From Verrucomicrobiota bacterium (GTDB taxonomy: Bacteria > Verrucomicrobiota > Verrucomicrobiia > Chthoniobacterales > UBA6821): a DNA stretch of 64,000 bases. The stretch covers positions 1 to 64,000 of the forward strand of contig JAIOPL010000032.1 of the NCBI GenBank assembly GCA_021413925.1, read 5' to 3'. The notes below the pieces were generated by a model that searched no databases, had not been told where the DNA came from, and was given only the letters and a program-made list of their open reading frames with translations. Both the position numbers and the translations under genes were made by a program. Below are positions 5,668 to 32,673 of this stretch, piece after piece (positions within the stretch are counted from its first letter, which is position 1; every line of letters starts with the position of its first letter).

Positions 5668-5695
5668 CGAATTACAGCACTCTAATTTCTTAAGC

Positions 5696-7228: not shown

Positions 7229-7247
7229 TCCGCATTTTTTAATAACC

Positions 7248-7985
7248 GTGGGAGCTCTGCTCGGCGTTAATATCGACCATGTCGCCACCGTGCGACAGGC
7301 TCGCTATGCTAAAAACGCTAGCTCTATCAACGTCGAACCTGATCCTGTCGAAGCGGCTCTGGCCGCCGAGCGGGGAGGGGCTGTAGGAATCACCGCGCAT
7401 CTCCGTCAGGACCGTCGCCATGTCGTCGACCACGATATTTTTCGACTCAAGGAAGCGATCGGTACGAAGCTCAACCTCGAGATGGGGAACTCCCCCGAGA
7501 TCGTGGCGATTGCCCTGAAGGTTCTTCCTGCCGATGTCTGCCTTGTCCCAGAGAGTCGTGAAGAAGTGACCACCGAGGGCGGGCTGGACTGTGTCAAACA
7601 TAGGGCATCCCTTGAGCCGACCCTCAAGTCCATGCGCGATGCAGGCATCCGTGTCAGTCTCTTCATTGATCCCGAGCCAGACCAGATCGCTGCTGCCTCC
7701 TCCCTGGGCGCTCCCGTCGTGGAACTCCATACCGGAGCATATGCCGAGGCCGCAGGAGCTGCACGAGAGGCTGAGCTAGCTCGCCTGATCGAGGCCGCTC
7801 GTCAAGCCGCTGATACCGGAATCCAGGTGAACGCCGGCCATGGTCTGAACTACACCAATGTCCAGCCGATCCTAACCCTCCCCAAGCTTGTGGAACTGAA
7901 TATCGGCCACTCGATCGTTTCGCGCGCACTTTTTGTGGGATTGGAACAGGCGACGCGCGAAATGGTTGAGTGCTTGCGCTTTTAG
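7248..7985 (+). CDS. pdxJ: Pyridoxine 5'-phosphate synthase
   Basis: PdxJ condenses 1-deoxyxylulose 5-phosphate with 3-amino-2-oxopropyl phosphate to form pyridoxine phosphate, the last step of the DXP-dependent vitamin B6 route. The GTG at 7248 is the natural start because LGVNIDHVATVRQAR is the conserved N-terminus; an ATG at 7182 would add residues read from inside purH. Family landmarks are GITAHLRQDRRH, NLEMGNSPE, and NAGHGLNYTN near the C-terminus, all expected for this TIM-barrel enzyme of about 245 residues. The stop codon lies inside the outer arm of a stem-loop element at 7980-8061. Confidence 0.95.
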   Translation: MGALLGVNIDHVATVRQARYAKNASSINVEPDPVEAALAAERGGAVGITAHLRQDRRHVVDHDIFRLKEAIGTKLNLEMGNSPEIVAIALKVLPADVCLVPESREEVTTEGGLDCVKHRASLEPTLKSMRDAGIRVSLFIDPEPDQIAAASSLGAPVVELHTGAYAEAAGAAREAELARLIEAARQAADTGIQVNAGHGLNYTNVQPILTLPKLVELNIGHSIVSRALFVGLEQATREMVECLRF

Positions 7986-8061
7986 CGCAGAGCTTTGTTG
8001 TTGCTTGCTCGCCGTATTCATAGATACGGCTTCGCTCTCACGCCTTGCTCTGCATCTAAAA
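7980..8061. repeat. Stem-loop element, copy 1
   Basis: A nested stem-loop that begins at the pdxJ stop codon. Outer arms: TTTTAG (7980-7985) with CTAAAA (8056-8061), and GCAGAGC (7987-7993) with GCTCTGC (8047-8053). Inner hairpin: GCCGTAT (8011-8017) with ATACGGC (8024-8030). The unpaired flanks (about 7996-8010 and 8031-8055) are nearly identical to those of the copy at 42448-42550, while the arms differ but still pair. See findings. Confidence 0.7.
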
Positions 8062-8217
8062 TCCTTACGCCTCTACGCGAGATTCTGCTGAGCTCGCAAC
8101 GCCGAGTGCCGGGAAGCACGCAGCAGTCTTTACGGAGATTTTTTGAACGAGCTAACGCGGTCTTGATCGGGTGAATGTGCTTGAGTGGCGTGTGCCGATA
8201 AGGCATCCTGAACAAAG

Positions 8218-8505
8218 ATGCGTTTTGAATGGGATCCTCACAAAAATGAACTTCTCAAATCCACCCGTGATATTTCTTTCGAGGCCATTGTGGTCCATCT
8301 GGGACTTGGGGATCTCTGGAGAATTGCGGATCACCCCGATCAGGCACGCTACCCTGGGCAGAAGCTCTTCTTCGTTCTCATTGAGGACTATATCCACATC
8401 ATTCCCTATGAGCAGCGAGGGGAAGTCATTTGGCTGATCACCATCATTCCCAGCCGTAAGGCTACCCGGGACTATCTAGAGGAAAAAAACAATGAAACTG
8501 ACTAA
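8218..8505 (+). CDS. brnT: BrnT/DUF497-like toxin
   Basis: The 95-residue protein opens with FEWDPHKNE and ISFEAIV, and ends with TIIPSRKATRDY. These are the start and finish of the BrnT/DUF497 fold, a RelE-like ribonuclease toxin. It overlaps the next gene by 14 bp, the usual toxin-first order of this family. The product would be expected to cut RNA when released from its antitoxin. Assignment to BrnT proper rather than a sister DUF497 family is likely but not certain. Confidence 0.75.
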   Translation: MRFEWDPHKNELLKSTRDISFEAIVVHLGLGDLWRIADHPDQARYPGQKLFFVLIEDYIHIIPYEQRGEVIWLITIIPSRKATRDYLEEKNNETD

Positions 8506-8761
8506 GGAAGAACAAGAAGTTGAATCACTGTACGAAGCTGGGAAAGTTGTGCTGCAAAAGCCCGGGAGGGTGATGCTGAACAAGTTGGCCTCCGCCGCGG
8601 ATAATACCTTCCGAAAGGATCGTCGGATCAATATCCGGCTCTCCGAACACGACATGGTTGGGATCCAGCGTGTGGCAGCCTCCAAGGGGGTTCCCTACCA
8701 GACCCTCATCTCGGGCCTGATCCACCAGTTCGTCGAGGGGGATCTGGTTCAGAAGATCTGA
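8492..8761 (+). CDS. Antitoxin partner of the BrnT-like toxin
   Basis: The 89-residue protein has a short helical N-terminal part and a ribbon-helix-helix-like C-terminal half (about residues 45-85, with INIRLSEHD, VAASKGVPYQTL and ISGLIHQF), as in CopG/BrnA-type antitoxins that bind DNA and autoregulate the operon. It overlaps the toxin gene by 14 bp, so the pair is almost certainly co-translated. The middle segment (residues 25-45) may be the toxin-binding part by analogy with relatives; this is inferred. Confidence 0.75.
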   Translation: MKLTKEEQEVESLYEAGKVVLQKPGRVMLNKLASAADNTFRKDRRINIRLSEHDMVGIQRVAASKGVPYQTLISGLIHQFVEGDLVQKI

Positions 8762-8814
8762 GCCTTTTTCTGTCTGCCGCACTTTTCTCAGCCAAGGCTC
8801 GCGATCTTGGCGGA

Positions 8815-8890
8815 GAGCGGCGTTGGTTTGCGGTCGCCGTATGACTACTACGGCCTGAACGGCACTTTGCTCCCGCAAAGCCGTGCCGCC
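8815..8890. repeat. Stem-loop element, divergent copy 3
   Basis: The gap between the antitoxin gene and the phosphoesterase gene (8762-8997) holds no gene that I can support. It contains a nested stem-loop: TTTGCGG (8827-8833) with CCGCAAA (8873-8879) outside, and GCCGTA (8836-8841) with TACGGC (8849-8854) inside. The layout and part of the flanks resemble the elements at 7980 and 42448, but the match is much weaker. Confidence 0.4.
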
Positions 8891-8997
8891 CTTTTGGGTT
8901 TGCCTAAGGGCAACTCCTCCGCTCCTATTCCTAGAGGCTTGGTTCCCTTGACCGCGTTGCTTTCCATCCAAGTATGCGATCCAAAGAGTTTATTATT

Positions 8998-9732
8998 CTA
9001 GCTGCCTATTTGCAGACGGGCAGCGTTTACGAGCGGAAGTTTCGCATTTTTAATCCGTAATTGAGCTATCCCGATATCGTAGGGAATTCTGCGGATAATC
9101 ATCGAGTATTCTATAGGATCAAAAATACAAAAAGAAGCCCTTGGATCCTCATCTCTTGGCTGACCTACAGACCCCACATTGATAGCATAGCGAGATAATC
9201 TATTTAAAAATCTCTCTCCCTCTTTGATTTCTTGCAGAGAGTGCACTCCTTTTCCCTCCTCTGAAATCATCGGTACATGCGTATGGCCTAAGAAAGAAAT
9301 AACTGTTTTTTGATTCTCAAAATGTAAACGTGCATCAACATGGTTTGTAAGGTAGTTAAAGCACTCTGGGTTGTAGAGGCTGGCATGGACAATGGTGAAT
9401 TTTGATTTGGACACTGAAAGTGGTAGTTTTTTCAACCATTTCAGGTCTTCCTGGGATAATTCCTTCTGCGCATGGCGGATCCCAGCAGCAACCCTTTCGC
9501 TGAGGGCATTGTTCTCGGGGCCGCTTAATACAAGTTCATCGTGATTTCCCAGAACAGCTCCCCTACAGCGGTCTCTTACTCGTTGAACGCATTCAGCAGG
9601 GGATGCCCCATAGCCAACAATATCCCCAAGGCAATAAATCTCATCAATACCTTGTCGATCTATTTCCTGAAGCACGGCATCCAAGGCATCAATATTACCG
9701 TGGATGTCAGAGATGAATGCTATCCGGTTCAT
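8998..9732 (-). CDS. Calcineurin-like metallophosphoesterase (YfcE/ApaH-like fold)
   Basis: A 244-residue protein with the full metal-binding motif set of the family: SDIHGN near the N-terminus, GDIVGYG, GNHDE, the HAS histidine, and GHTHVP. Together these bind two metal ions and hydrolyse phosphodiesters or phosphomonoesters. The single-domain size and the GDIVGYG form resemble small phosphodiesterases and protein phosphatases of bacteria. Its start codon overlaps the stop of a 46-codon frame upstream (TGATG), so translation is probably coupled. It faces away from the chaperone/kinase island. A role as the phosphatase opposing the island's kinase is only a guess. Confidence 0.88.
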   Translation of the reverse strand: MNRIAFISDIHGNIDALDAVLQEIDRQGIDEIYCLGDIVGYGASPAECVQRVRDRCRGAVLGNHDELVLSGPENNALSERVAAGIRHAQKELSQEDLKWLKKLPLSVSKSKFTIVHASLYNPECFNYLTNHVDARLHFENQKTVISFLGHTHVPMISEEGKGVHSLQEIKEGERFLNRLSRYAINVGSVGQPRDEDPRASFCIFDPIEYSMIIRRIPYDIGIAQLRIKNAKLPLVNAARLQIGS

Positions 9733-9872
9733 CAGTTCCAGTCCTTTTGATTCTCCAAAAACCTTGTTACAGCAGCTAGCACCAGCTCTTCTGTTGAGAG
9801 CTCGTTGATAGCTGCTGTTGCTTCTACTAGATCAAGCAATTCAAGGGGCATGGGGATGAGAGTTTTTTCCAT
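9732..9872 (-). CDS. Small hypothetical protein, coupled to the phosphoesterase
   Basis: A 46-residue frame on the minus strand. Its ATG is at 9872 and its TGA stop shares one base with the ATG of the phosphoesterase gene (TGATG at 9734-9730). The sequence starts MEKTLIPMPLELLDL and ends VTRFLENQKDWN. It is acidic and helical, as in small regulatory or antitoxin-like peptides, with no recognisable domain. The tight overlap is the main reason to think it is translated. It shares a 93-bp divergent promoter region with the sigma-factor gene. Confidence 0.5.
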   Translation of the reverse strand: MEKTLIPMPLELLDLVEATAAINELSTEELVLAAVTRFLENQKDWN

Positions 9873-9965
9873 TGTTTACAGGATTACTACTGCAGCGAGT
9901 TTTTTTCGTCATACAGTTGTAGTCGATCTTGCAACACCCAGAAAACTCTGACAGAACTTGACCAC

Positions 9966-10604
9966 ATGGAGGTAAACACCCAAAAGGAAGAAGCTGAAGC
10001 GAGGTTTGAGGGCCATCTGGCACTAGCTCAGGTCATCGCACTTGAGTATTTCAATATTCCTAGGGCACTTCCTGATGAGGCTCTGGCAGAGGCTCAATTG
10101 GCTCTCTGGAGGGCAGCCAATGCGTATAATCCAGAGCGTGGCGAGTTTCCTCCGTATGCCTCCAGAGCCATACGGAATTCTCTCAACACCCTGTATGCAA
10201 AACAGCTCAAGATGGCGAAGGTATTTCCCCAGAGTCTTGATGAAAGTCCTAAATGGGGGAACGCTGGACTTTCCTCTGGCTCCACATTTGACGCTTCACC
10301 CAAGTCTAAGATCAAGGATCAGAAGCAGGATGTGAGAAAAGTGGTTCAATGGGAGGAGACTACCACAATACTTATGCAAGTATTGGAGAGACTCAATTTA
10401 AGGGAGCGAGTGGTGATTGATGCAATAAGGTCAGGTCACAGCTTTGCTGAAATTGGAACGAAACTCTCAATCAGCAAACAAAGCGCTCACAAAATTGCCA
10501 CAATTGCACTTGGAAAACTTAAAAGCTATTTAGAGGAAATAGGTTACACGGGATTGGACACTGAGGGGCTGCTCAAAGGTAATAGAGTGAAGACAATTGG
10601 CTGA
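9966..10604 (+). CDS. Sigma-70-family RNA polymerase sigma factor
   Basis: A 212-residue protein with a region 2-like segment (about residues 15-80, with ALAEAQLALWRAANAYNPERG and FPPYASRAIRN, the familiar helix that melts and contacts the -10 element) and a region 4 helix-turn-helix (about 130-190, LNLRERVVIDAIR ... FAEIGTKLSISKQSAHKI). It is likely a specialised sigma factor for this locus. It is the first gene of a same-strand run that continues through an Hsp70-like protein at 17950. Base composition is clearly more AT-rich than in purH and pdxJ, which fits acquisition of the island. No cognate promoter motif was identified by eye. Confidence 0.8.
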   Translation: MEVNTQKEEAEARFEGHLALAQVIALEYFNIPRALPDEALAEAQLALWRAANAYNPERGEFPPYASRAIRNSLNTLYAKQLKMAKVFPQSLDESPKWGNAGLSSGSTFDASPKSKIKDQKQDVRKVVQWEETTTILMQVLERLNLRERVVIDAIRSGHSFAEIGTKLSISKQSAHKIATIALGKLKSYLEEIGYTGLDTEGLLKGNRVKTIG

Positions 10605-10646
10605 CGTTTTTCGGGCTTATCCGTATGGTAAATAAAACAGCATCCT

Positions 10647-11990
10647 ATGGTCATTTCACAAAAACCTGAAAGCGCCCTTCTTTATGTGAAGGATAAAGGA
10701 AGAGTGAGAGGCCCTTTTTTGCGTGATTTTATTGATGCAATGATCCTCTCAGGGCACTTTAGCACAACTATTGAGATAAGTTTGAACGGACAAAGTGATT
10801 GGACGCGAATAGATTCAGCGCCTGTAGTTAGGGGTCCAAAATTAAATCCAGGCAGTAATGCAGCCCCCTCTTCTTCTAGTAATAAAAATAAGAACATTGT
10901 ACTGGGAATAGTTGGAGCGGCAGGTTTAGGCCTAGTCATTCTAATAGCGGCTGCAAATTCAACAACTGAAACTACCAGCAATAAGAATACTAGCGCTTCA
11001 GTTGCCAATTACTCGACCCCACCTCCAATCGTAGCATCCACGCCAAAACCCGTATCTACTCCGATTATCCCCGTTCAAAGCTCGACTCTATCCCCAATTA
11101 ATCAAAGCGAAACGACAAGTGCTACATTTGAAGGATGGAACGAAAGTTATAAAATTGCGGTTCAGAAAGCTGAGCAAAGCCACAAAAATATTCTAATATA
11201 TTTTTCAGGAAGCGACTGGAGCTCTTGGTCCCAGAAACAAAAAAACGAACTTCTGAACACAAGCTCATTCCAAGATTATGCTGCTAATAATCTAGTTCTC
11301 CTACAAGTTGACTTTCCGTATGGAAAATATCCAAGTAGCGACATTATTTCATTGAAAAAAGTCTATCAGATATATGGTTTTCCATCATTTGTTTTAATCA
11401 AGCCTGATGGCAATATAATTAAGAAGTATTTTGGTTATCTTCCCGGTGGGTATTCAGGATTTAAAGATTGGCTCGATTCCGACGCAGTTGAGTTATCCTC
11501 TCCTGAGATTTCAAAATATTCTGAAGGAGCCTTCCCGATTTTTCCCTCACCGACTCCTAGTACTTCAAGTACGGCCAACATTGCACCATTTACTCCAGTT
11601 TTCCAAAGCACGCCCAGACCTACATATACGCAACCTTCCTCCTATAACTCGAGTCTTTCCCAGAGTTCATTTAATGATACCCGTGGAACTACATATACAT
11701 ACCGGCAATCGCAGGCTTACACACTAAACAAATTGGATCAGGTTGTTAGAGAAAAGAAAGGGGTGGTGGCATCATGCAAACAATCTATGGATGCCATTAA
11801 TGCTCAAATAAAGGCAGAACGACCTTACATTGACCATAGTAGCCAGAACTCTGTTGATCAGTTTAATTACAAAATAGACAGATATAACGATCTACGGTTG
11901 CGATATAATTCTGCAATTGATGATATGAATGCAGCCGTTGATCAGTTCAACGCTGAACTTCATAGAATTGGAACTCCAGCTAGAAATTGA
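10647..11990 (+). CDS. Membrane protein: GYF-like domain plus thioredoxin fold without CxxC
   Basis: This 447-residue protein has a GYF_2-like N-terminal domain (about 8-60, with VRGPFLRDFIDAMI), one membrane helix (about 84-105), a Pro/Thr/Ser-rich linker, a thioredoxin-like domain (about 165-290) and a Gln/Ser-rich stretch leading to a helical C-terminal region. The thioredoxin domain looks like the thiol-disulfide family in which the active site reads GSDWCxWC, but here both cysteines are serines (GSDWSSWS, near residue 190). The fold is kept, with FPSFVLIKPDG containing the cis-proline, so it is probably a binding domain rather than a redox enzyme. The kinase gene follows after 4 bp. Confidence 0.7.
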   Translation: MVISQKPESALLYVKDKGRVRGPFLRDFIDAMILSGHFSTTIEISLNGQSDWTRIDSAPVVRGPKLNPGSNAAPSSSSNKNKNIVLGIVGAAGLGLVILIAAANSTTETTSNKNTSASVANYSTPPPIVASTPKPVSTPIIPVQSSTLSPINQSETTSATFEGWNESYKIAVQKAEQSHKNILIYFSGSDWSSWSQKQKNELLNTSSFQDYAANNLVLLQVDFPYGKYPSSDIISLKKVYQIYGFPSFVLIKPDGNIIKKYFGYLPGGYSGFKDWLDSDAVELSSPEISKYSEGAFPIFPSPTPSTSSTANIAPFTPVFQSTPRPTYTQPSSYNSSLSQSSFNDTRGTTYTYRQSQAYTLNKLDQVVREKKGVVASCKQSMDAINAQIKAERPYIDHSSQNSVDQFNYKIDRYNDLRLRYNSAIDDMNAAVDQFNAELHRIGTPARN

Positions 11991-11994
11991 GAAT

Positions 11995-13098
11995 ATGAGA
12001 CTCTTATCTGATGGAGAAACAATAAAAGAAACCTACGAAGTCGAAAGATTTCTAGGAGAAGGTGCATTTGCTGAGGTCTACAGAGTAAAGCACAGGTTTT
12101 TGGGGAGGCAGGCCATGAAGGTCTTTAAAAGGGCAGGAATGACGGTTGAGGAGATTGAGCAAATGCTTGGTGAAGCAATAATGCTTTCGCGTATTGGTCA
12201 TCCAAATATTGTCCGAGTATTTGATGCCAATGTGTTTGAATCGCAAAAAGGGCTCCAGGGGTATTTCACGATGGAGAATGTATCAGGTGGAAGCCTTGAA
12301 AAATTCTGGCACTCCTATGGGACTCGCCTAATTCCTCTTGATATCACGATAGACCTCATTAAACAGGTATGTCGTGGCCTAGCAATAGCCCATAGGCAGA
12401 CTCCACCCATTATTCATCGGGATATCAAACCTCAGAACATATTGGTAGGGTATGAAACAGATGGTCTTAGAGCACGCATCAGCGATTTCGGCTTAGCCAA
12501 ATCTGTAAACCCTCTCACGTTTCTTGCTACAGCAGCGGGAACACCTGCATTCAAACCACCTGAAGCTTTTACAGCGTCAAAAGGGGATTCTTGCTCCGCG
12601 GATATTTGGGCAATAGGTACAACACTATATTTACTCCTGACCGATCGTCTTCCATTCAAGATGCCAACGGAGTTTGGCTGGGGAGGCGCTGAAGAGATAC
12701 AAGACACATTTAAGCCTCCATCGCTGATCAATCCAGACGCTAATGATGAATTGGACAAAATTATTAGAAAAGCCCTCTCATTTAATCCAGCTAACAGATA
12801 CCAGAGTGCATCGGAAATACTTGAAGCTCTGGAAAAATGGAAGCCAGGTCATTTAAATCCGGCGGGGCACAATGTAAAAGCGAAGGACGGTTACTCTAAG
12901 ACTGCACTTGGCTCAGGACTTAGCTCCCCAGATCAAGAGAAAGGCAATGAGATTGTAAAGCTAGCATTGAGATACAAAAAGGAAGGAAGACTCGCTGAAG
13001 CAGCAGACGCGATGGAGGAGGCATTCAATAAAGCACCTGGTCTCAGGTCCAAGTATAACAATCTTGTTAAACTTTGGCGTTGCGGAATCAGCATGTAA
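11995..13098 (+). CDS. Ser/Thr protein kinase with C-terminal helical tail
   Basis: The 367-residue product is a eukaryotic-like kinase. The glycine loop is GEGAFAEV, the ATP lysine is in AMKVF, the catalytic loop HRDIKPQN is near residue 140, the metal-binding DFGLAK is near 163, and the APE-like motif is PPEAF. These residues predict an active enzyme. There is no membrane segment. A tail of about 85 residues carries a TPR-like helical pair (LALRYKKEGRLAEAADAMEEA). The ATG at 11995, 4 bp after the previous stop, is preferred over an in-frame ATG at 11929 inside the upstream gene. Likely substrates are the neighbouring chaperone-like or sigma proteins; this is inference. Confidence 0.9.
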   Translation: MRLLSDGETIKETYEVERFLGEGAFAEVYRVKHRFLGRQAMKVFKRAGMTVEEIEQMLGEAIMLSRIGHPNIVRVFDANVFESQKGLQGYFTMENVSGGSLEKFWHSYGTRLIPLDITIDLIKQVCRGLAIAHRQTPPIIHRDIKPQNILVGYETDGLRARISDFGLAKSVNPLTFLATAAGTPAFKPPEAFTASKGDSCSADIWAIGTTLYLLLTDRLPFKMPTEFGWGGAEEIQDTFKPPSLINPDANDELDKIIRKALSFNPANRYQSASEILEALEKWKPGHLNPAGHNVKAKDGYSKTALGSGLSSPDQEKGNEIVKLALRYKKEGRLAEAADAMEEAFNKAPGLRSKYNNLVKLWRCGISM

Positions 13099-13108
13099 CT
13101 GAAGACCC

Positions 13109-14950
13109 ATGGAACGCACTTTATCACAACCTCTCTTAGAAGCCTGTACTCCTGATTTATACAATGGAAACGTATTTCGTATAACCGGGCTTCCCGTTTA
13201 CGCAACTGAGAAAGAGATCAAACGTGCTGCCGAAAAGCAGAAAATGTTAGATGAGTTAGGGGTTAAAGATGAAACTACAACAACCCCTTTTGCTTTAGCA
13301 AATCAACCGTCTGCAGATGCAATTAAAACAGCCATGAATAGGCTGAAAATGCCCGAGGCTAGAGTTATTGACGAGTTATTCTGGTTCTGGCCCATGGACG
13401 AAAGCCATCAAGATCCAGCCTATATGGCCTTCTTAAAAGGTAAGACTGACGACGCTTACACTCAATGGAATAACGATGTCTCTGGTTTAAATAGAGGAAT
13501 AGCCACTCACAACCTAGCAGTAATGTTCCACCTGACTGCAATGGACTGGAGTAATTATCAGCTTGTGGAAGATGTCTCTCCAGAGAGGACAGAAAAAATT
13601 CTGAACTACTGGAAAGAGGCGCACGAGCGATTGCAGCTTCTCAGGCAAAACGACCAGTTTTGGACCGCCTTCAAAGATAGAGTCGAAGCTCTAAATGAGC
13701 CAATGCTCACTTCTGGATTTGTAAGAAGAATCAGAGAAACATTCCAAATTGCATTGGCATCTATTCATGCCGACTTTGCCCTACGCTTCAATTCAAAAGG
13801 GAAGAGAAGAATCGCATTGGAACATGTCTCCTGGTTAAAGTTGTGTTGTCCGAAATCAGAACAAAGAGAGTTGGTCTATACCAAAGCACTTCTTACGCAC
13901 AAAAATAGAGTTAAACAATCTGTTGCAGCAATGCCGGAAAGTATCAAAGCTGATCCATCATCGGGAGCAAAGATTGTTACTCAAGCACTCGCCACACTGA
14001 AAAATGAGAATGAGATTTTCTCACTATTCTATTCAGATGAAAGAAGTCAGATAGGAGACCTGTTCGATCCTGTCTTGATGACATGCATAAATGGATTAGT
14101 CTTATTTGTAAGAAAAACCGAGAATAATTCTGAGTTTGTAAGAATTCTTAAAGAATTACAGCCGCTTGCGACTTCTGATGAGGTTAAAGATCGAATAACG
14201 ATCAATATTGAAAGTGGGAATAGCGGTCTTAACAAAGAGAGATTATCTTCGGCTTATAAAATCCTCGATAAGATCGATAAAGACGAAGGGCAAATTGCAG
14301 CAAGGCTTAAAGAATTTAAACAAGAGTTTATGCCCATGTTCTGTGATTTTGTTGAAAGAGAAGGATCAAATGCTGAATCAATCAAAGATCTATCCGATGA
14401 AGCAGCAAGGTCCCTTCGCTCAATTTCTGTCGATGCATATAACAAAGACAAGAACTACACATTGGCATCAGATGCGATAAAACTCGCAACGCTACTTGCT
14501 CGTGATCAAAAGCTTAAAGAACTCATAGCTGCGGATATTAAGACTGTAGAGGAAGCAGTGAAAGAATCTACCTGCCACTTCTGTGGTAAGAATCCCTCCC
14601 TAGAAGCTCACGCTATGTCTGTTGACATGCATGAGGTAACTTCACGCAACCTTTTTGGTAGAGCTCAACAATACAGGCATTTTTCTGTCAAGGTTCCTAG
14701 ATGCCTTCAATGCTTGAAGGCCAAAAACAAAGAATCATGGATTGCATTCATTATTGGCTTTATTGCATTCGGAATCGCTACCGCAATTATTCCTGGAGCT
14801 ATTGCTATCTGGGCTATTGGCGGTCTAGTTATCTGGGGAGTGCTCAATCAGATTCTTGATTTCGCAAGTCCTAGAAAAGCGAAGTCTACCTATTCAAGAA
14901 TTCAGGAACTTCAAAGAACTGGATGGAAGTTTGGATTAAAACCTAGTTAA
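13109..14950 (+). CDS. J-like membrane protein with zinc-ribbon motif, no HPD
   Basis: A 613-residue protein. Residues about 12-45 (YNGNVFRITGLPVYATEKEI followed by KRAAEKQKML) resemble helices I and II of a J domain, and IKTAMNRLKMPEARV then resembles helix III. The HPD tripeptide between them, needed to stimulate Hsp70, is absent and replaced by a Thr-rich loop. A long helical middle (about 100-480) is followed by CHFCGK (about 488) and CLQC (about 531), a likely zinc site, and a hydrophobic hairpin (about 542-585) that should anchor it in the membrane. It sits just upstream of GrpE-like and Hsp70-like genes, so a role as their membrane partner is a fair inference. I do not know a named family. 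Confidence 0.6.
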   Translation: MERTLSQPLLEACTPDLYNGNVFRITGLPVYATEKEIKRAAEKQKMLDELGVKDETTTTPFALANQPSADAIKTAMNRLKMPEARVIDELFWFWPMDESHQDPAYMAFLKGKTDDAYTQWNNDVSGLNRGIATHNLAVMFHLTAMDWSNYQLVEDVSPERTEKILNYWKEAHERLQLLRQNDQFWTAFKDRVEALNEPMLTSGFVRRIRETFQIALASIHADFALRFNSKGKRRIALEHVSWLKLCCPKSEQRELVYTKALLTHKNRVKQSVAAMPESIKADPSSGAKIVTQALATLKNENEIFSLFYSDERSQIGDLFDPVLMTCINGLVLFVRKTENNSEFVRILKELQPLATSDEVKDRITINIESGNSGLNKERLSSAYKILDKIDKDEGQIAARLKEFKQEFMPMFCDFVEREGSNAESIKDLSDEAARSLRSISVDAYNKDKNYTLASDAIKLATLLARDQKLKELIAADIKTVEEAVKESTCHFCGKNPSLEAHAMSVDMHEVTSRNLFGRAQQYRHFSVKVPRCLQCLKAKNKESWIAFIIGFIAFGIATAIIPGAIAIWAIGGLVIWGVLNQILDFASPRKAKSTYSRIQELQRTGWKFGLKPS

Positions 14951-14952
14951 AA

Positions 14953-15462
14953 ATGAAAATACCAAAAAAAATAGTCCTAGTTAAGCACGAATATCCTGCA
15001 GTAGAGCAATTGCAGGATATTATAGAACAAGTACTTGTGAGCTCACAGAAGCATGAACAAGATAGTAATGACAATGCTGGAAAAGAGTTTTTCATTACAG
15101 GAAAACCTCTTGAAGCTTTAATGGCTATAATTACTTATGTTTGGCGTATACAGGATCGAATAATTGATAAACATACAATGGATGCAAAAGAATCCATATC
15201 TGTAGAAGAATTAAAAAAACTCTCCAAGTATACAGAACAGATCATTGATAAACTGAAATCCATGGGATTTGAGATAAAAGATCGTTTAGGTGAGCAATTC
15301 AATTATGGACTTCCGGAGAATGTCGTAGCTACCAAACCGCAGCCCGGCCTCACTCATGAAACAGTCATCGAAACATTAATGCCAACGATATATTTCCAAA
15401 ATAAAACCATTCAGCGTGGAGAAATTGTTATTGCAACACCTGAAACCCCAAAAGCTGAATAA
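14953..15462 (+). CDS. GrpE-like nucleotide-exchange protein
   Basis: A 169-residue protein, 2 bp after the J-like gene and 1 bp before the Hsp70-like ATG. It has a long helical N-terminal half and a short C-terminal part with TVIETLMPTIYFQNK and QRGEIVIATPE, which lines up loosely with the beta-wing end of GrpE (V-E-x-L-x-P-x-Y ... G-x-V-x-V). GrpE proteins release ADP from Hsp70. Identity is weak and the call leans on context: such a protein next to an Hsp70-like gene is expected. It could instead be a dedicated adaptor. Confidence 0.5.
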   Translation: MKIPKKIVLVKHEYPAVEQLQDIIEQVLVSSQKHEQDSNDNAGKEFFITGKPLEALMAIITYVWRIQDRIIDKHTMDAKESISVEELKKLSKYTEQIIDKLKSMGFEIKDRLGEQFNYGLPENVVATKPQPGLTHETVIETLMPTIYFQNKTIQRGEIVIATPETPKAE

Positions 15463-15463
15463 T

Positions 15464-17950
15464 ATGACAAGAACTACTATTGATTTCGGAATCGATCTTG
15501 GAACTACTAATAGCGCTATTGCAGAGCTAACAGGTGTTTCAACAACTATTATTAAAAATAACGATGATGGAGATGTAACTTCCTCGGCGGTTATGTTTGG
15601 GAAAAACGGCCAAGTCTACACTGGCTCAAGAGCAAAAAACGGTACAATCGATAAGCCCGACGATGCATACGCCGAGTTCAAGCGGCAAATGGGTACCGAT
15701 CATTCCTACAAATTCAAGCAAAGCGGTGTTTCAAAGTCTCCTGAGGAGCTCTCGTCAGAAATCTTGAAAGGACTCCGCTCAGACGTAATTAGAGTAAGAG
15801 GAGAAGAGATTAACTCCGCAGTGATAACAGTACCTGCAGCCTTTGGTTTGCACCAATGTGATGCAACTAGAAAAGCTGCACAACTTGCCGGATTTACACT
15901 TAGTCCCCTGGTACAAGAGCCCGTAGCGGCTGCGCTTGCTTACGGCTTCCAAGTAGAATCAGAACGTGAATACTGGCTCGTTTATGATTTCGGTGGAGGA
16001 ACATTTGATGCAGCCATTATTAAAGCAGAAGAAGGGCTTATAAATGTTGTTAACCATGGTGGAGATAACTGGCTCGGTGGGTCAGATATTGATTGGGATA
16101 TTGTACAAAAAATTATCATTCCGAAGCTTCAGGGAGGTTACAATCTGCCCGGTTTTCAAAGAGGAAATGAGAAGTGGGGATGGCAACTTCGAAAACTCAA
16201 ACATGCCGTTGAAGCTGCCAAGATCGAACTCTCAACAAAATCGTCGACCTCCTTGCTTGGATGTTCCTTTGAAGATGAGGATGGTAATCTGGTTGACTGT
16301 GAGGACATTCAACTAACTCAATCAGAAGTAATCAGCATTGCTGAACCAATCGTACGTAGGTCGATTGATATATGTAAGGACACACTCAAAAAATCAAATA
16401 TCCCGGAGGATAGAATCACTAAACTAGTACTGGTGGGAGGACCCACAAAAGCCCCCTACTTCAGAGAGATTATCAAGAACGCTTTGCCCATAGCGATTGA
16501 TCATTCGATGGACCCGCTTACAGTTGTTGCTAAAGGAGCTGCCGTATTCGCAGGGACTCAAAAGATTGAGGTCAAGAAATCTGCAAATATGGCTGCCGAT
16601 GAGTATCACGTAGACCTGAAATACAAAGCTGTCGGTATTGAAACGGATCCCATGGTTGGTGGAAGGGTATCGTCCTCAGCAAACTCCTCAATGGACGGAT
16701 TTTCAATCGAGGTTACGAATCAAAAGAGTCAATGGAAGAGTGGGAAAATCCCCCTTAAATCTGATGGGTCATTCATCCTAAACCTTCACGCAGAAAAAGG
16801 GGAAAGAAACCTATTTAACATCGAATTGTTTGATTCCGTCGGTACCCTTAAAAAGGTTTCTCCAGACAATCTCGTATATACTGTAGGCGCAGCAATCGAA
16901 GAACAACCTTTGATCCATTCACTTGGAATTGCTCTTAGTGGCAACGAGAAGGAAGTGTTCTTCAAGAAGGGCGATGGTCTTCCCTTAAAAAAGAAGGGAG
17001 ACAGACCGTTCAAGACAATAAGTACTATTAAGGTTGGGGAGGAAGGTTCAGGGATTGTGATTCCAATTGTCGAAGGTGAAAATGAAAAGGCAGACAGAAA
17101 TCTGTTGATTGGTATCTATGAGATCACATCAAAACAGATTAAAAGGGACCTTCCAGCGGGATCTGATGTTGAAATCACTTTAAGGATTGATGAATCGCGA
17201 GTTATCACAATCAATATTTACATTCCTATCTTTGATGAAGAATACGACTTCCATCTTGATCTACGAAAGGGGTCAATCACAAAAAAAGATCTAGAAACAG
17301 ATTTAAGCTTCGAGATTGAAAGGTTACAAAAACTTGAAGCGGAAGCTAAAGCGGCCGACCAAAGTGACATCATCTCAAAGATTGATGAGCTAAGATCGTC
17401 CGCCCTACTCCAGGAAATACGATCATCGATAGCAGCTTCTGAAGGCGATGCAGTTGCTGCTAATAAAGGACAATCGAGAATGCTTGAGTTTAAAATTCAA
17501 GTTGATGCTATTGAGACTCTTGTCCATTGGCCTTCAATTGTAGCAAAGATTCAGGATTGGCTCAAAGACCTTAAGTCAGTTGCAGCGGATCACGGGACTT
17601 CCTCACAGAAGCAGAAAGCATCTGACCTTTCATCTCAGGTTGATGACTCAATCAAGCGTAAGGATGCTGATAGTATTGAGAAGAGACAAAAAGACGTTGA
17701 ATCTTTATATTTCGGCATTTTATTTGCTCAACCTTCTTTCTGGGTAAATCAATTTAGGTACCTTGAATCGGAAAAAACAAAAATGACGGATCAAGCGAAG
17801 GCTTTACGTCTTTTGGACATGGGACGTAACTACATATCCCAGAATAACACGGAAGGACTTAGACAGATTGTTCAACAACTATGGACACTAACGCCTGATG
17901 ATGTTGTCAATAATGCACAAAGGGGTTTTGGAGCAAATCTGGCGCGATAA
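15464..17950 (+). CDS. Hsp70/DnaK-like chaperone, enlarged
   Basis: An 828-residue Hsp70 relative, much longer than DnaK (about 640). The ATPase domain (about 1-375) keeps phosphate-1 loop GIDLGTTNS, phosphate-2 loop YDFGGGTFD (near 170) and the adenosine motif LVGGPTKAPYF (near 322), so ATP binding is expected. After it comes a stretch that reads like a small beta-sandwich (about 390-490), a possible substrate-binding sandwich (about 490-600), and about 200 residues of helical lid and tail with no EEVD-type end. The ATG at 15464 gives the usual start close to the phosphate loop; an upstream ATG at 15416 lies inside the GrpE-like gene. Likely a specialised chaperone of this locus. Confidence 0.85.
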   Translation: MTRTTIDFGIDLGTTNSAIAELTGVSTTIIKNNDDGDVTSSAVMFGKNGQVYTGSRAKNGTIDKPDDAYAEFKRQMGTDHSYKFKQSGVSKSPEELSSEILKGLRSDVIRVRGEEINSAVITVPAAFGLHQCDATRKAAQLAGFTLSPLVQEPVAAALAYGFQVESEREYWLVYDFGGGTFDAAIIKAEEGLINVVNHGGDNWLGGSDIDWDIVQKIIIPKLQGGYNLPGFQRGNEKWGWQLRKLKHAVEAAKIELSTKSSTSLLGCSFEDEDGNLVDCEDIQLTQSEVISIAEPIVRRSIDICKDTLKKSNIPEDRITKLVLVGGPTKAPYFREIIKNALPIAIDHSMDPLTVVAKGAAVFAGTQKIEVKKSANMAADEYHVDLKYKAVGIETDPMVGGRVSSSANSSMDGFSIEVTNQKSQWKSGKIPLKSDGSFILNLHAEKGERNLFNIELFDSVGTLKKVSPDNLVYTVGAAIEEQPLIHSLGIALSGNEKEVFFKKGDGLPLKKKGDRPFKTISTIKVGEEGSGIVIPIVEGENEKADRNLLIGIYEITSKQIKRDLPAGSDVEITLRIDESRVITINIYIPIFDEEYDFHLDLRKGSITKKDLETDLSFEIERLQKLEAEAKAADQSDIISKIDELRSSALLQEIRSSIAASEGDAVAANKGQSRMLEFKIQVDAIETLVHWPSIVAKIQDWLKDLKSVAADHGTSSQKQKASDLSSQVDDSIKRKDADSIEKRQKDVESLYFGILFAQPSFWVNQFRYLESEKTKMTDQAKALRLLDMGRNYISQNNTEGLRQIVQQLWTLTPDDVVNNAQRGFGANLAR

Positions 17951-17974
17951 AAGCAACAAAAGAGTTATCTTCAA

Positions 17975-18535
17975 TTGACAAATCTACTTTCCAAGTTTGC
18001 ACTCCAGAATCGACTGGCGAGAGCCTCTGAGCTTGCCCTCTTAGGTGCTTTTGCAAGCGCAGAAGGGGTTTTGATGCCTCGTGGCTTCCTTCCAAAGTCT
18101 CATCAAGAACTTGATTTACTGGCACGAATAAAGGTTCAGTTAGGCGATTATGAAATTGCTAGTCAACTATGGACTGCGGCTTCAAAGCTAGGAAATAGAT
18201 CTTATCAAGAAGAGATCGACGAACTTGGGACGTGGAAACATGCAATTGAATCAAGGAATAGACTGATTTATCGGGTGGTATTATCCGTTCTCTTACTAAC
18301 ATTGTTGGTTCTTATAGCTTCCTTTTTATATCCTAAGGCCTCGAAGGTCTTCAGAGACTTAAAAAGACCAGCCACCCAGGTTACATCCGAAACTACGACC
18401 ACAGCCCCGGTGCCTTCTCAATCGATCGTTCCTGTCAACATACCTTGTCCCGGCGTCACTGCATCTCCCGTCCCATCTCCTTCTGTTGAAAAGATGAAGC
18501 CCAGGAAGAAATTCATTAAGTCTGATTCTGCGTAG
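17975..18535 (+). CDS. TPR-like single-pass membrane protein
   Basis: The 186-residue product has a helical, TPR-like N-terminal part (about residues 1-85, with LLGAFASAEGVL and LDLLARIKVQLGDYEIASQLW), one membrane helix (about 98-119) and a Pro/Thr/Ser-rich tail ending in basic residues. It starts at a TTG at 17975; the first ATG in frame (18071) would cut into the helical repeats. It lies 24 bp after the Hsp70-like gene and 4 bp before the Clp-N-like gene. The topology would put the helical part in the cytoplasm, able to bind chaperone partners. The function is not known. Confidence 0.6.
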   Translation: MTNLLSKFALQNRLARASELALLGAFASAEGVLMPRGFLPKSHQELDLLARIKVQLGDYEIASQLWTAASKLGNRSYQEEIDELGTWKHAIESRNRLIYRVVLSVLLLTLLVLIASFLYPKASKVFRDLKRPATQVTSETTTTAPVPSQSIVPVNIPCPGVTASPVPSPSVEKMKPRKKFIKSDSA

Positions 18536-18539
18536 GAAT

Positions 18540-19253
18540 ATGAGCAAATATTCTGATGGAATAAATCTAGTTTGGAAGATTGCTGCGATTGAGGCTCAAA
18601 ATCTTAATCATCAAGAGATTGATCCATTAGACTTAATGCTTGGCCTCCTAAAGATTGTTGATGTAGTGCTTGAAAAGATCATTCACAGTCCAAAGCCTAT
18701 TGAGTTGCTCGAGATTAAGGATGAGGTAACTGAGATAGAACAGATCTTTATTAACTCTGGACTTGTTCCCGCCAAAATCAGACGACGATTGAGACGTGAA
18801 TCATTTAATCAAGCTCACAATGTAGTTTATAAAAACGGAATAATTCATAGAAGTAAGCTCTCCAAAAGCATTTTTTCAAATGCAGAAGGCCATCTTTCAT
18901 CAGAAGAGCCGACCATCAGGCCTTTTCATCTTCTGATTGCACTACTTGAAAAACATGATGCAGATCTTGATAGGGCCTTGTTGATGGTTAGTTTTCCGGT
19001 TTCTTCAGTACTACGGCAGATAGCAAAGAAGCTGCCCTCATCAGAGGGACTGAAGCATCCATCCATTCCAACACTGAGTAACTATACTACAGGTTCTGAG
19101 AGTCTTATGCGTCATTGCCGTGCTGCAATTGGTTATATTGAACTTTCGATGTTCGTTGAAGCCGAGGGGGAATTGAAAAAGATCGACCCAACTGAACAAG
19201 AACATCCCGCTGTAAAGCGACTTCGGGAAGACATTCGCCATAAAAGACCTTGA
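18540..19253 (+). CDS. Clp N-domain-like protein lacking an ATPase
   Basis: A 237-residue protein with two blocks that look like the Clp R/N-terminal repeat: WKIAAIEAQNLNHQEIDPLD then LMLGLLK near the N-terminus, and RPFHLLIALLEKHDADLD near residue 120. In ClpA, ClpB and ClpC these repeats bind substrates or adaptors and precede AAA modules. Here no Walker motif follows; the C-terminal part is a short TPR-like helical segment. It may serve as a free adaptor for the neighbouring Hsp70-like machine or for a Clp protease. Its TGA stop overlaps the TTG start of the nuclease gene. Confidence 0.6.
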   Translation: MSKYSDGINLVWKIAAIEAQNLNHQEIDPLDLMLGLLKIVDVVLEKIIHSPKPIELLEIKDEVTEIEQIFINSGLVPAKIRRRLRRESFNQAHNVVYKNGIIHRSKLSKSIFSNAEGHLSSEEPTIRPFHLLIALLEKHDADLDRALLMVSFPVSSVLRQIAKKLPSSEGLKHPSIPTLSNYTTGSESLMRHCRAAIGYIELSMFVEAEGELKKIDPTEQEHPAVKRLREDIRHKRP

Positions 19254-19759
19254 AACGGGCTGTTCTAATACTAATTCTGACAGTTCCATTGACCTTGCAA
19301 GGGCAACAAGGTCAACAGGATCTCAAGGCTTATTTTAGCCCAAATGGTGGTTGCACCCAAGCCGTAGTAGAAACACTCAACGGAGCAAAAAAGACTATTC
19401 TAGTTCAGGCCTACAGTTTCACCTCCACACCAATCGCAAAAGCTTTGGTAGATGCGAAGAAGCGTGGGGTCGATGTTAGGGTCATCCTCGACAGAAGTCA
19501 GCGGACTGAGCGCTACTCCGGTGCGACATTTCTTACTAATGGAGGAGTTACCACCTTTATCGACGCCACCCATAAGATCGCCCACAACAAAGTGATGGTG
19601 ATCGACGATCAAGAAGTAATAACAGGAAGCTTCAATTTCACGAAAGCAGCCGAGACCGGGAATGCTGAGAATGTACTTCTGATACTCCACGCTCCTGAAC
19701 TTGCCGCCAAGTACTCTCAAAACTGGCATGAGCATCTAAATCATTCTGAAAACTACTGA
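19250..19759 (+). CDS. Secreted phospholipase D-family nuclease (Nuc-like)
   Basis: A 169-residue protein with a signal peptide (about residues 1-18) and one HKD motif, HNKVMVIDDQ followed by GSFNFT, the single-domain form typical of the Nuc endonuclease group, which works as a dimer on DNA. Other landmarks are AYSFTS and DVRVILDRSQ. The start is a TTG at 19250 that overlaps the previous stop, giving translation coupling to the chaperone island. A damaged copy of the same gene lies at 21090, so this is the working member of a duplicated pair. Location is probably periplasmic or outside the cell. Confidence 0.85.
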   Translation: MKRAVLILILTVPLTLQGQQGQQDLKAYFSPNGGCTQAVVETLNGAKKTILVQAYSFTSTPIAKALVDAKKRGVDVRVILDRSQRTERYSGATFLTNGGVTTFIDATHKIAHNKVMVIDDQEVITGSFNFTKAAETGNAENVLLILHAPELAAKYSQNWHEHLNHSENY

Positions 19760-19761
19760 AC

Positions 19762-21093
19762 ATGAAACATTTCGCATTATACCTAGTCCCTTTGCCATTC
19801 ATTTTAATATCGCCTCTCCTATTAAATGGATGCACCACTGTATGCCCTAAACCCACCGCCCCTCACTTGGCAGCACTGGGGGAGAGCAAGTCTCAAATCA
19901 TCAAAGAACTAGGAGCTCCGACCGCCCACTACATGAACGGGTTTGACCTATTTCACGACAATGGCAACGAGGTGCAGGCGCATTTTAAGGCAGGAAAAGC
20001 CGACTCTCTCTTCTACTTCACCTTTGACAGGAAGATCTCCAAACCATGGCTTTCCTCTGTTCTAAAGCTGAACTCACGGGGTACATCTTGGGTTCTTGAA
20101 GAAAGCTCCGCCTCGAGCCGTAAAGTTTATCGCTCACAGGATGGAAAGTTCCATGCCTTTGTCAGCAAAGGGAATCAGTTGATGGTTGATACAGACTCTT
20201 TCTTCCAGAAGGCACTCCATCAGCCCGGTAAAACTATCCACGTGGATAGCCTTCCGGAATGCATCTTCGCACCAGACCACACGATTGCCAAAATTGGTGA
20301 TACTGAATCATTCATCGTCCGGAATTACGGGCCAGAATACAAAATAAACAAAAATAAGAGCGACCTGGCCAAACTCTACTTCGATGGATGTCAGACGGTT
20401 TTTGCGCACTACAAGGCGGGTGTAGCTGATGCGGTTCTTTATGAGGCTGACAATTACAAGAGACTCAATGACTGCTGGGTATCACGACTTCTAGCTAACA
20501 ACTCGGGAAATCGGGCGTGGATCGTCCCATCATTCACTAGGCCAAATCGTATTTACTACAGGACACCCCATAGTGACCTTCTGGCTGACATGAGGGATAG
20601 AAAAACCCTGCTCGTTTATAAATGGGACTACGACCCCAATTTTAACTCAGGAAATGGCAAGAGGGAGTTACTCAAAAAACCACCTGCGGCAAAAATGAAC
20701 CCTTGTTCACTGGTCTGGATCGGCGAGACGGAGGCTGCCATGTCCAAAAAGCTGGGCCATCCAACTTTGGACAAGGACGTTAGGATCTATCGGGACGGTG
20801 ATTTGATCATACGCGCCCGCTTTGACCACGGAGTCTGTAAAAGCATCACCTATATTTCTGAAAAGAAGCGTAAATTTACTGATCACTGGGTCTCCGCAAC
20901 CTTGGGCGTGAACTCAGGAGGACGGGCTTGGCTCGTGGATGAGAGCGACATTCCAAAAGAGATCCATTTCAAGACCTTCGACCACACGTTTTACGCGCTA
21001 CTGACGGATGGTAATGAGTTGAGAGTGACGACGGAGGCTTTTTTAAAAAAAAGGCTTATGGAGCTCGAAGATAAAAGAAAAAAATCCCAATGA
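19762..21093 (+). CDS. Lipoprotein with three internal repeats
   Basis: A 443-residue protein with a lipobox (LLNGC, Cys 24). It is made of three similar units beginning near residues 39, 176 and 319 (LGESKSQIIKELGAP, IGDTESFIVRNYGPE, IGETEAAMSKKLGHP). Each unit continues with an aromatic strand, a W-x-S/V motif, an N-S-x-G block (LNSRGTSW, ANNSGNRAW, VNSGGRAW) and a terminal strand ending D-x-x-F or close to it. This resembles the SmpA/OmlA-like idea of 'which outcome at each step of a lipoprotein fold', but the family is unknown to me. The gene lies between the intact and broken PLD nuclease genes, with 2 bp and an ATGA overlap, respectively. Confidence 0.65.
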   Translation: MKHFALYLVPLPFILISPLLLNGCTTVCPKPTAPHLAALGESKSQIIKELGAPTAHYMNGFDLFHDNGNEVQAHFKAGKADSLFYFTFDRKISKPWLSSVLKLNSRGTSWVLEESSASSRKVYRSQDGKFHAFVSKGNQLMVDTDSFFQKALHQPGKTIHVDSLPECIFAPDHTIAKIGDTESFIVRNYGPEYKINKNKSDLAKLYFDGCQTVFAHYKAGVADAVLYEADNYKRLNDCWVSRLLANNSGNRAWIVPSFTRPNRIYYRTPHSDLLADMRDRKTLLVYKWDYDPNFNSGNGKRELLKKPPAAKMNPCSLVWIGETEAAMSKKLGHPTLDKDVRIYRDGDLIIRARFDHGVCKSITYISEKKRKFTDHWVSATLGVNSGGRAWLVDESDIPKEIHFKTFDHTFYALLTDGNELRVTTEAFLKKRLMELEDKRKKSQ

Positions 21094-21682
21094 GCCACGG
21101 GCGCGCTGCCTTTGCTATTATCGCATTATTTTCAATTACCATTCTCCAAGCCCAGACCAACACTCCTGATATCAAAGTCTATTTCAGTCCCCATGGGGGA
21201 TGAACGGAGGCGGTGGTGAGAGCTGTGAATAGTGCGAAGAAGCAGGTGCTAGTGGAGGCTTATTCTTTCACGTCTGAGCCGATTGCTGTGGCTCTGATTG
21301 TGGGAAGCGGGGAGTCGATGTGGAGGTGATCCTGGATAAGAGCCAGGAGCAGGCACGGGGAACGGAAGCTGATGCCGAGAGCGGTATCCCGACCTATATC
21401 GATTCAGCCTACCGGATCGCCCATGACAAGGTGATGGTGATCGACGGGAGCAAAGTGATCACCGGTTCCTTCAACTTCACCAAAAGCGCCGAAGACTACA
21501 ACGCAGAGAACCTACTGGTCATATCAAATGACCCACCCCTGGCCGAGCAATATGCGGCCAGTTGGAAGCAACACCTGGCACAATCCCATCCCTTCCATCC
21601 CGGCAAAAGCCACCACAAGTACGGCTCGCGCTCCCACTACTACAGACCTATCGGAATAGGGGAAACAGAGCCAGTCGGCTAG
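21090..21682 (+). pseudogene. Broken second PLD nuclease gene
   Basis: The ATG at 21090 overlaps the lipoprotein stop (ATGA). The frame gives a signal peptide and KVYFSPHGG, then a TGA at 21201-21203 where the intact copy has a Cys codon. Reading through gives TEAVVRAVNSAKKQVLVEAYSFTS, here quoted only in part (VLVEAYSFTS), and a second break near 21297-21303: a deletion shifts the frame where the intact copy reads DAKKRGVDV. The rest (21320-21682) keeps the HKD motif DKVMVIDGSK and GSFNFT. So the gene has both a nonsense codon and a frameshift. Recoding cannot be excluded but is unlikely. Confidence 0.85.
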
Positions 21683-21721
21683 ATATTACCCCCGTCTCTT
21701 TTCCTGGGCTGCTGATTCAAA

Positions 21722-21799
21722 AACTCCTCTGCGTCTCTGCGTCTCTGCGCGAGATTCAGCGTCAGACCTAACAGCCTTCAGTCTAAACCACTAAACCCC
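21722..21799. repeat. Dispersed intergenic repeats, families A and B
   Basis: Two spacer words stand side by side here. First a GCGTCTCTGC-type word (21722-21763: CTCTGCGTCTCTGCGTCTCT and CGCGAGATTCAGCG), then CTAACAGCCTTCAGTCTAA (21768-21786) with ACCACTAAACCCC. Similar words recur at 23517, 27899, 36197, 44104, 47293 and 48300. Confidence 0.65.
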
Positions 21800-21816
21800 T
21801 GCCGCCCAAAGGGCCG

Positions 21817-23436: not shown

Positions 23437-23516
23437 TGGATTAGGTAATCGGGAATGGGTGATGGGTAATTGGGATTCTAATTTGGAAAAGATGTGGAAT
23501 GGATTTGGAACCTTAT

Positions 23517-23551
23517 AGCCTAACAGTCTTCAGTCTAACCCCCTAAAAAGC
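23517..23551. repeat. Dispersed intergenic repeat, family A
   Basis: A copy of the CTAACAGYCTTCAGTCTAA word followed by CCCCCTAAAAAGC, at the 3' end of the acyltransferase-heptosyltransferase gene; its last bases overlap the coding end. The neighbouring 23436-23500 spacer is rich in GGTAAT and GGGTGATGG words. Confidence 0.6.
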
Positions 23552-27818: not shown

Positions 27819-27898
27819 GTCAAAGTAACAAAGCAACAAGGCTATTGGCTTTTTGGCCCATTGGCAGGAAGAGCCACGGAGTCTTATTTGAAAACGAA

Positions 27899-27927: not shown

Positions 27928-27950
27928 TTTTTTTACCTTTCGTCCCACCG

Positions 27951-32672: not shown

Positions 32673-32673
32673 C

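Follow-up and report, generated by a model that had tools for sequence, protein, structure and literature searches.

A candidate envelope-linked Hsp70–kinase module with an altered J-protein contact on a low-GC island of a Verrucomicrobiota genome

Introduction

Why should a bacterial genome carry a further Hsp70 gene set packed together with a protein kinase, membrane proteins and a sigma factor? The question is raised by contig JAIOPL010000032.1 of a Verrucomicrobiota bacterium, of which a 64,000-nucleotide stretch (hereafter the window) was analysed. Eight open reading frames at 9966–19253, all on the + strand, encode in this order a sigma factor, a GYF–thioredoxin-like protein, a Ser/Thr kinase, a J-like membrane protein, a GrpE-like protein, an enlarged Hsp70, a tetratricopeptide repeat (TPR) protein with a transmembrane (TM) segment and a Clp_N-like protein. 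A preliminary description made from the sequence had called this segment a possible undescribed chaperone–kinase island, and its account of eight closely spaced genes in AT-rich DNA was borne out. The gaps are 42 bp (sigma–GYF), 4 bp (GYF–kinase, with the kinase start at 11995), 10 bp (kinase–J), 2 bp (J–GrpE), 1 bp (GrpE–Hsp70), 24 bp (Hsp70–TPR-TM) and 4 bp (TPR-TM–Clp_N), and the GC content of the segment is 40–44% compared with 57–60% in the flanks. The canonical grpE–dnaJ, dnaK and an hscB/hscA-like pair sit elsewhere in the source genome rather than at this position; the operon is thus an additional set.

Stimulation of Hsp70 by J-domains through the HPD motif and R167 is treated as a universal rule of Hsp70 machines; in DnaK, R167 bonds with D35 of the HPD in the J-domain (PMC8215388, PMC13012618). 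Whether J proteins without HPD are accidental or selected was called unknown in a 2026 review (PMC13254874). As described below, the operon belongs to a family in which both halves of this contact have changed.

Results and discussion

The Hsp70 (15464–17950, + strand) has 828 residues, and its Pfam match (PF00012, 1.3e-71) is confined to the ATPase domain. Its AlphaFold model (pLDDT 89.7) resembled BiP with a TM-score of 0.83. Alignment of DnaK (2v7y) to the Hsp70 profile gave two blocks, 9–364 and 485–628, the latter being the β part of the substrate-binding domain (SBD), and with this domain and an ATPase domain holding the catalytic residues the protein is a member of the Hsp70 superfamily. 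The split alignment, together with strands at residues 380–474 of the model, located an inserted β domain of Ig/carboxypeptidase-regulatory-like type (16586–16903, + strand) at the junction of the two, and weak CarboxypepD_reg matches to it were found in homologues. This insertion of ~100 residues replaces the short hydrophobic linker between the nucleotide-binding domain (NBD) and the SBD, and no VLLLD-type linker is present.

Residue conservation in the family fell into two classes. The catalytic residues D8, K70, E171, D194, T199 and D201 were invariant in 66/66 Hsp70s, and the positions that contact the J-domain were changed: position 167 is P in 61 of 73 sequences and R in none, position 170 is Q in 65 of 73 and N in none, and position 173 (T in DnaK) is mostly V. 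HscC-like chromosomal Hsp70s also vary at R167, which is lost in some, yet they keep N170 and T173, so that the combination and not R167 alone is the hallmark. In a tree of ATPase domains, in which the sampling of canonical DnaK was modest, the Hsp70s of the module and of plasmids formed a single clade (support 0.979), as the preliminary description's tree check had asked. Escherichia coli DnaK, HscA, HscC and YegD fell outside it, and so did the sampled chromosomal Hsp70s of relatives.

The gene two upstream encodes the J-like protein (13109–14950, + strand; AlphaFold pLDDT 92.7), which consists of a J domain without HPD, helical repeats, a zinc ribbon and a TM hairpin. The degenerate J domain spans residues ~14–93 (13148–13387, + strand), with model helices at 22–26, 34–50, 69–79 and 82–90. 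Comparison of this region with real J-domains by hhalign gave a probability of 78% (E 1.7e-5), and the controls (reversed alignments, 20 shuffles and five unrelated families) reached at most 0.9%. The Pfam DnaJ model matched none of 44 members, and a fold search with the whole model returned helical-repeat proteins only; the J-like assignment therefore rests on the controlled profile comparison and the helix order. HPD was missing from the J loop in all 43 aligned sequences, and no second, HPD-bearing J gene recurs in the modules. The hairpin lies at residues 533–585 (14705–14863, + strand), where the model has two helices and hydropathy marks 542–579; a TM segment was predicted in 49/70 J-like proteins. 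The GrpE-like protein (14953–15462, + strand) is of the β-wing type with a shortened helix. PF01025 matched 20 of 56 family members (best 5e-5), the window member itself falling below the threshold.

Since HPD is absent from the J-like domains and R167 and N170 are changed in the Hsp70s, the alignments indicate that the canonical J–Hsp70 contact is lost on both sides within a family that retains the Hsp70–J–GrpE trio. An 'entire Hsp70 cycle' had been described as duplicated here. The phrase was overstated: with a J-like partner lacking HPD and an Hsp70 with changed contact residues, the locus is not simply a duplicated Hsp70 cycle. Could it instead be a redundant or decaying copy of ordinary DnaK–DnaJ–GrpE that moves about without a distinct role? 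The intact canonical set elsewhere in the genome and the clear homology of Hsp70 and GrpE would suit such a copy. However, the genes are intact, are conserved in about 10 phyla and have an Hsp70 clade apart from DnaK; constraint on the catalytic residues, the kinase tail and the promoter is strong, and the J–Hsp70 changes are common to the family. We consider such a copy most improbable, and on the grounds of conservation a decayed DnaK was rejected.

Three known chaperone systems are close enough to need comparison. Like canonical DnaK–DnaJ–GrpE with ClpB, the module has an Hsp70 ATPase with GrpE-like and J-fold partners, and a Clp/Hsp100 ATPase in some cases, but it lacks HPD, R167 and a VLLLD-type linker and adds the ~100-residue insertion, membrane anchors, a kinase and its own sigma factor. 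In E. coli, the specialised Hsp70 HscC has its own membrane-anchored J proteins, DjlB and DjlC, encoded nearby and is thought to be active at the plasma membrane (PMC8215388); the module likewise combines a specialised Hsp70 with a predicted membrane-anchored, dedicated J protein. DjlB and DjlC, however, keep HPE (PMC13254874) and HscC keeps R167, N170 and T173. HscC also has no inserted domain, and a kinase and GrpE-like, sigma and TPR-TM partners are all missing from its locus. The position of E. coli HscC and of HscC-like chromosomal proteins outside the clade, together with these residues, ruled out an HscC system. Pam16 (Tim16) of the mitochondrial import motor, which works with Pam18, is also a membrane-associated J-like domain that lacks HPD and works with Hsp70 (PMC13254874). 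Whereas Pam16 partners the active J protein Pam18 and an ordinary mtHsp70, in the modules the Hsp70 itself is changed and no second J gene with HPD recurs.

The operon lies in a 13.7 kb low-GC island (8072–21754, unstranded), delimited by the GC dip and by comparison with a genome of the same genus, G005. A contig of G005 (L197) matches the window at 5695–8071 and 21755–23694 with only ~85 bp separating the two blocks; thus the 13.7 kb between them are absent there. A second relative (G009, 96% identical) extends into the island's left end as far as 8945, where its contig ends. The right flank is genuine DNA of the genus, so contamination is an unlikely source of the island. The Hsp70 was not found in any of the 15 same-genus genomes searched, and its C-terminal part was present in 8/388 genomes of the phylum.

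Beyond the genus the genes recur together and are not scattered, as the co-occurrence check in the preliminary description had required. The complete eight-gene set was found in the window, in G049 (locus L025) and in L048, the same order being kept in two other Verrucomicrobiota families; G049, from another family of the same order, has all eight genes with an SH3-domain membrane gene inserted ahead of the Clp_N gene. Close variants of the full set are found in L042, L044 (Chthoniobacter flavus) and L046. A search across 84,980 species yielded 122 relatives, of which 80 were kept, from Verrucomicrobiota, Planctomycetota, Chloroflexota, Actinomycetota, Bacteroidota, Acidobacteriota, Pseudomonadota, Syntrophaceae/Smithella, Omnitrophota and Hydrogenedentes. 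Many carriers are metagenome-assembled genomes, and the isolates include Chthoniobacter flavus, IMCC26134, Actinomadura, Frankia and Nocardia. A core of HPD-less J-like protein, GrpE-like protein, Hsp70 and TPR membrane protein, often with the kinase, spans about 10 phyla. This recurrence, the separate Hsp70 clade and the lack of the segment in G005 support the preliminary reading of a chaperone–kinase island. Profile searches over 83 non-duplicate loci counted the J-like protein in 72, the GrpE-like in 77, the TM/TPR protein in 59, the kinase in 37, Clp_N in 20, GYF in 12 and the sigma factor in 8. Where 4.5 kb or more of upstream DNA was available (58 loci), 57 had the J-like gene, 49 the GrpE-like gene, 43 a contiguous J–GrpE–Hsp70 run and 26 the kinase.

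Several loci have unusual arrangements. Two of Chloroflexota type (L063 and L066) have a tandem Hsp70 gene pair, the first in L066 being an ATPase domain only (414 residues). In actinobacterial loci (L112, L118, L097 and others) the J-like proteins carry large additional parts, with Sel1 repeats in L112, where two giant kinases, one with β-helix domains, also lie downstream of the Hsp70.

Plasmids of Pseudomonas, Vibrio, Haliscomenobacter and Aminobacter carry a distant branch (28–31% identity). GrpE-like proteins can be recognised on them, and the Haliscomenobacter and Aminobacter plasmids encode J-like proteins as well. The Verrucomicrobiota genome G091 (L026) has only a distant relative belonging to this plasmid-type branch, and its Hsp70 is 71% identical to that of the Pseudomonas plasmid pSDM007 (L153), which is direct evidence of transfer between phyla. 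Plasmid pSDM007 is conjugative, and each of these two Hsp70s adjoins a TPR protein of 706–708 residues (36% identical). On the Haliscomenobacter plasmid pHALHY02 (L155), the distant module includes a kinase–AAA ATPase fusion and a TerB gene, and it directly adjoins the BREX genes brxL and pglZ.

Such mobility raises the question of whether the module serves in conflict, that is, as an anti-phage or anti-plasmid device in which an Hsp70–J–GrpE threshold switch would detect or reshape a protein of the invader and set off an effector by way of the kinase or the membrane parts. A threshold-switch role of HSP70 has been proposed for GTPase-centred conflict systems (PMC7159879), and HSP70 with GrpE and with an NBD-only HSP70 occurs in the published systems (PMC7159879), as the NBD-only Hsp70 does in L066. 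We keep defence as a rival because of the mobility, the plasmids, these published systems and single-case neighbours: besides the BREX example, one diverged plasmid relative has an integrase and toxin–antitoxin genes, and a Fic protein (PDC-S24) and a DNA methylase lie beside the G049 copy. The patchy spread within the genus and the phylum and the lack of the island in G005 fit it as well. Against this, PADLOC matched 86 module neighbours to 52 families and 86 random control genes to 106, which is no enrichment in defence genes, in a crude comparison whose control sample included a CRISPR gene and generic helicases. No neighbour family recurs beside the loci beyond the module genes and hence no conserved effector was seen; the module matched no system-specific PADLOC 2023 model, only generic kinase models; and no relatives were found in phage or viral collections. 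We therefore regard a conflict role as unlikely, though still a serious competitor.

Two published types of conflict system share parts with the module. In the GAP1-N2 GTPase-centric systems (Kaur et al. 2020, PMC7159879), HSP70 and GrpE occur with a partner fused to DnaJ or TPR and in some cases with another HSP70 that has the NBD only. They resemble the module in combining Hsp70 with GrpE-type and DnaJ-type partners, in being membrane-associated and in occurring in Verrucomicrobia and Chloroflexi among others, but similar parts are insufficient for membership: these systems are defined by a DO-GTPase and GAP1, and the module has neither. GAP1-N2 was absent from the source genome and from 24 of the 31 cassette-bearing genomes searched, all the non-actinobacterial ones among them. 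This search and the lack of any GTPase beside the cassettes ruled out a GAP1-N2/DO-GTPase system. CoCoNuT and related McrB systems are also mobile and have Hsp70-like NBD and SBD parts and, in some types, a Ser/Thr kinase (PMC11090510). They are, however, built on McrB-type GTPases and nucleases, and their Hsp70-like CnuD is predicted to be a very poor ATP hydrolyser, unlike the Hsp70 with its invariant catalytic residues. With neither McrB nor a nuclease in the module, this candidate too was rejected.

We now turn to regulation. The sigma factor (9966–10604, + strand) has sigma-70 regions 2 and 4 (TIGR02937, 1.8e-16; PF04542, 7.6e-6), and an orthologue (48% identical) heads the G049 cassette. 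A 25 bp promoter-like motif, TGACGWTTTT-N8-TTCGTAT (10602–10626, + strand), is conserved between loci and is the presumed target of this sigma factor. The window, L025, L042, L046 and L048 all have it, either just behind the sigma gene or ahead of the operon, and in L046 it occurs again before the kinase. In a held-out test each locus's own site ranked first, with 22–28 bits compared with 9–16 for the next unrelated site, and the source genome has one exact match, at the operon. These two results suggest a putative dedicated, single-target sigma factor.

The kinase (11995–13098, + strand; PF00069, 1.5e-42; start set by alignment to the G049 orthologue) has the eukaryote-type active-site motifs, a glycine loop, HRDxKPxN and DFG. 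It ends in a tail, ...LWRCGISM (13063–13095, + strand), of a type (LWRxGIxM) conserved in most module kinases across phyla. This tail marks a co-conserved kinase and suggests a docking role.

The remaining three genes encode two predicted membrane proteins and a Clp_N-like protein. The second gene (10647–11990, + strand) encodes GYF, TM (residues 81–106) and thioredoxin-like parts (PF13899, 6.5e-8; PF14237, GYF_2, weak at 0.01). WSSWS stands where the catalytic cysteines of thioredoxin would be, and the G049 orthologue has no thioredoxin part, so redox activity does not seem to be the point. The TPR-TM protein (17975–18535, + strand; TM at residues 95–123) has a Pro-rich tail. Its gene directly follows Hsp70 in 38 of the 61 loci with enough sequence, and a TM segment was predicted in 55/60 family members. 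TPRs were recognised in 31 of 38 relatives, with a C-terminal OmpA domain in eight, LysM in three and BON in one; these C-terminal domains suggest that the TPR part lies in the cytoplasm and is anchored to the cell wall. Such peptidoglycan-binding domains and the dedicated sigma factor fit envelope biology better than conflict. The last gene encodes a Clp_N-like protein (18540–19253, + strand; PF02861, weak in the window at 0.0024 and clear in relatives at 4.8e-5). It has no AAA+ domains and is therefore not a Clp/Hsp100 ATPase, whereas L048 and L057 encode complete Clp AAA+ homologues. The preliminary assignments held: domain matches agreed with the sigma, kinase, Hsp70 and thioredoxin-fold/GYF calls (GYF weakly), profile comparison with the J-like call in spite of the Pfam result, and the families of relatives with the TPR-like membrane and Clp-N-like calls and, for 20 of 56 members, with the GrpE-like one.

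Taken together, these features suggest an Hsp70 machine that was acquired horizontally, is controlled by its own sigma factor and regulated by the kinase, and works at the cytoplasmic membrane's inner face, a reading to which we give about an even chance. The sigma factor would transcribe the operon from the motif observed directly behind its gene, and the hairpin-anchored J-like and TPR-TM proteins, with their predicted topology, may hold the Hsp70 at the envelope. There the Hsp70, its catalytic residues all kept, would hydrolyse ATP and the GrpE-like protein would exchange the nucleotide, while the J-like protein, given the residue losses, may engage Hsp70 by a contact other than HPD–R167 and the inserted β domain could alter communication between the ATPase and substrate-binding domains. 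The kinase may dock by its C-terminal tail and switch the machine or its client by phosphorylation, and the Clp_N protein could bind clients or pass them to a Clp unfoldase, a complete one being encoded in related modules. The most likely output would be that an envelope complex is assembled, remodelled or quality-controlled upon a stress signal. The preliminary description had left stress sensing, secretion and defence side by side; envelope stress is the best supported, and the defence part drew no support from the matched PADLOC comparison.

Some findings weigh against such a machine. Only a few loci have the sigma gene at the operon's head, and about half have the kinase, from which we conclude that module regulation varies. 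About 30% of the J-like proteins have no predicted TM segment by a simple hydropathy test, and the window's own TPR-TM protein has no recognisable peptidoglycan-binding domain. The plasmid location and patchy spread would suit a defence system too.

A more specific proposal, which we hold only tentatively, is a widespread, unnamed Hsp70 class in which the HPD–R167 contact is lost from both partners and replaced by another trigger that involves the inserted β domain and a tail-docking kinase, making an envelope-anchored, phosphorylation-gated switch on a mobile, sigma-bearing operon. Related ideas were found in the open-access literature, to which our search was confined, subscription papers and preprints lying outside it, and no description or name for the gene set, in line with the earlier statement that no named system with it was known. 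The parts are of known kinds; what is new is their combination and the two-sided loss of the HPD–R167 contact. In about ten phyla, both partners of the contact, an Hsp70 family and the J-like family encoded beside it, have lost their half of it together while the ATPase stayed intact, which makes the question of accident or selection testable on one operon. Bacterial stress or conflict biology would also gain something new: a chaperone module that is mobile, brings its own sigma factor and a kinase conserved with it, and seems to be tethered to peptidoglycan.

Neighbouring genes

A gene for a PLD-family nuclease-like protein with a signal-peptide-like N-terminus (19250–19759, + strand; PF13091, 1.3e-26) overlaps the Clp_N stop by 4 bp, and 2 bp after it starts a gene for a repeat-containing, lipoprotein-like protein (19762–21093, + strand) that matches no known family. 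From this overlap and this gap, the transcription unit probably extends to 21093. The chaperone set might accordingly be dedicated to making or exporting one surface or secreted product, such as these signal-peptide PLD proteins or a surface complex, and the several membrane proteins and the full Clp ATPases of some modules are compatible with that. However, L046 was the sole other locus with a PLD homologue, which lies upstream of its module; the repeat protein was found in no other locus, and no secretion-apparatus gene recurs beside module loci. We judge the export reading improbable and the PLD gene a probable local cargo rather than part of the module core. DrmC-type PADLOC models match the PLD protein, and a second, shorter PLD copy follows the two genes within 19250–21682.

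Just within the island's left edge is a BrnT-like toxin and CopG-type antitoxin pair (8218–8761), which the G009 match spans; a CopG-side fragment adjoins an ABC-F gene in G012. Between this pair and the sigma gene lies a calcineurin-like phosphoesterase (8998–9732, − strand). On the chromosomal side of the island, 26829–34545 encodes MoxR, DUF58, two vWA membrane proteins, TPR and BatD-like proteins and resembles an ordinary Bat (aerotolerance-type) operon. In a second low-GC stretch, 53277–61421 encodes a full-length RHS/YD-repeat protein (1511 residues) followed by two partial RHS tips with differing C-termini (58430–59842 and 60525–61421), resembling a polymorphic-toxin array with displaced tips.

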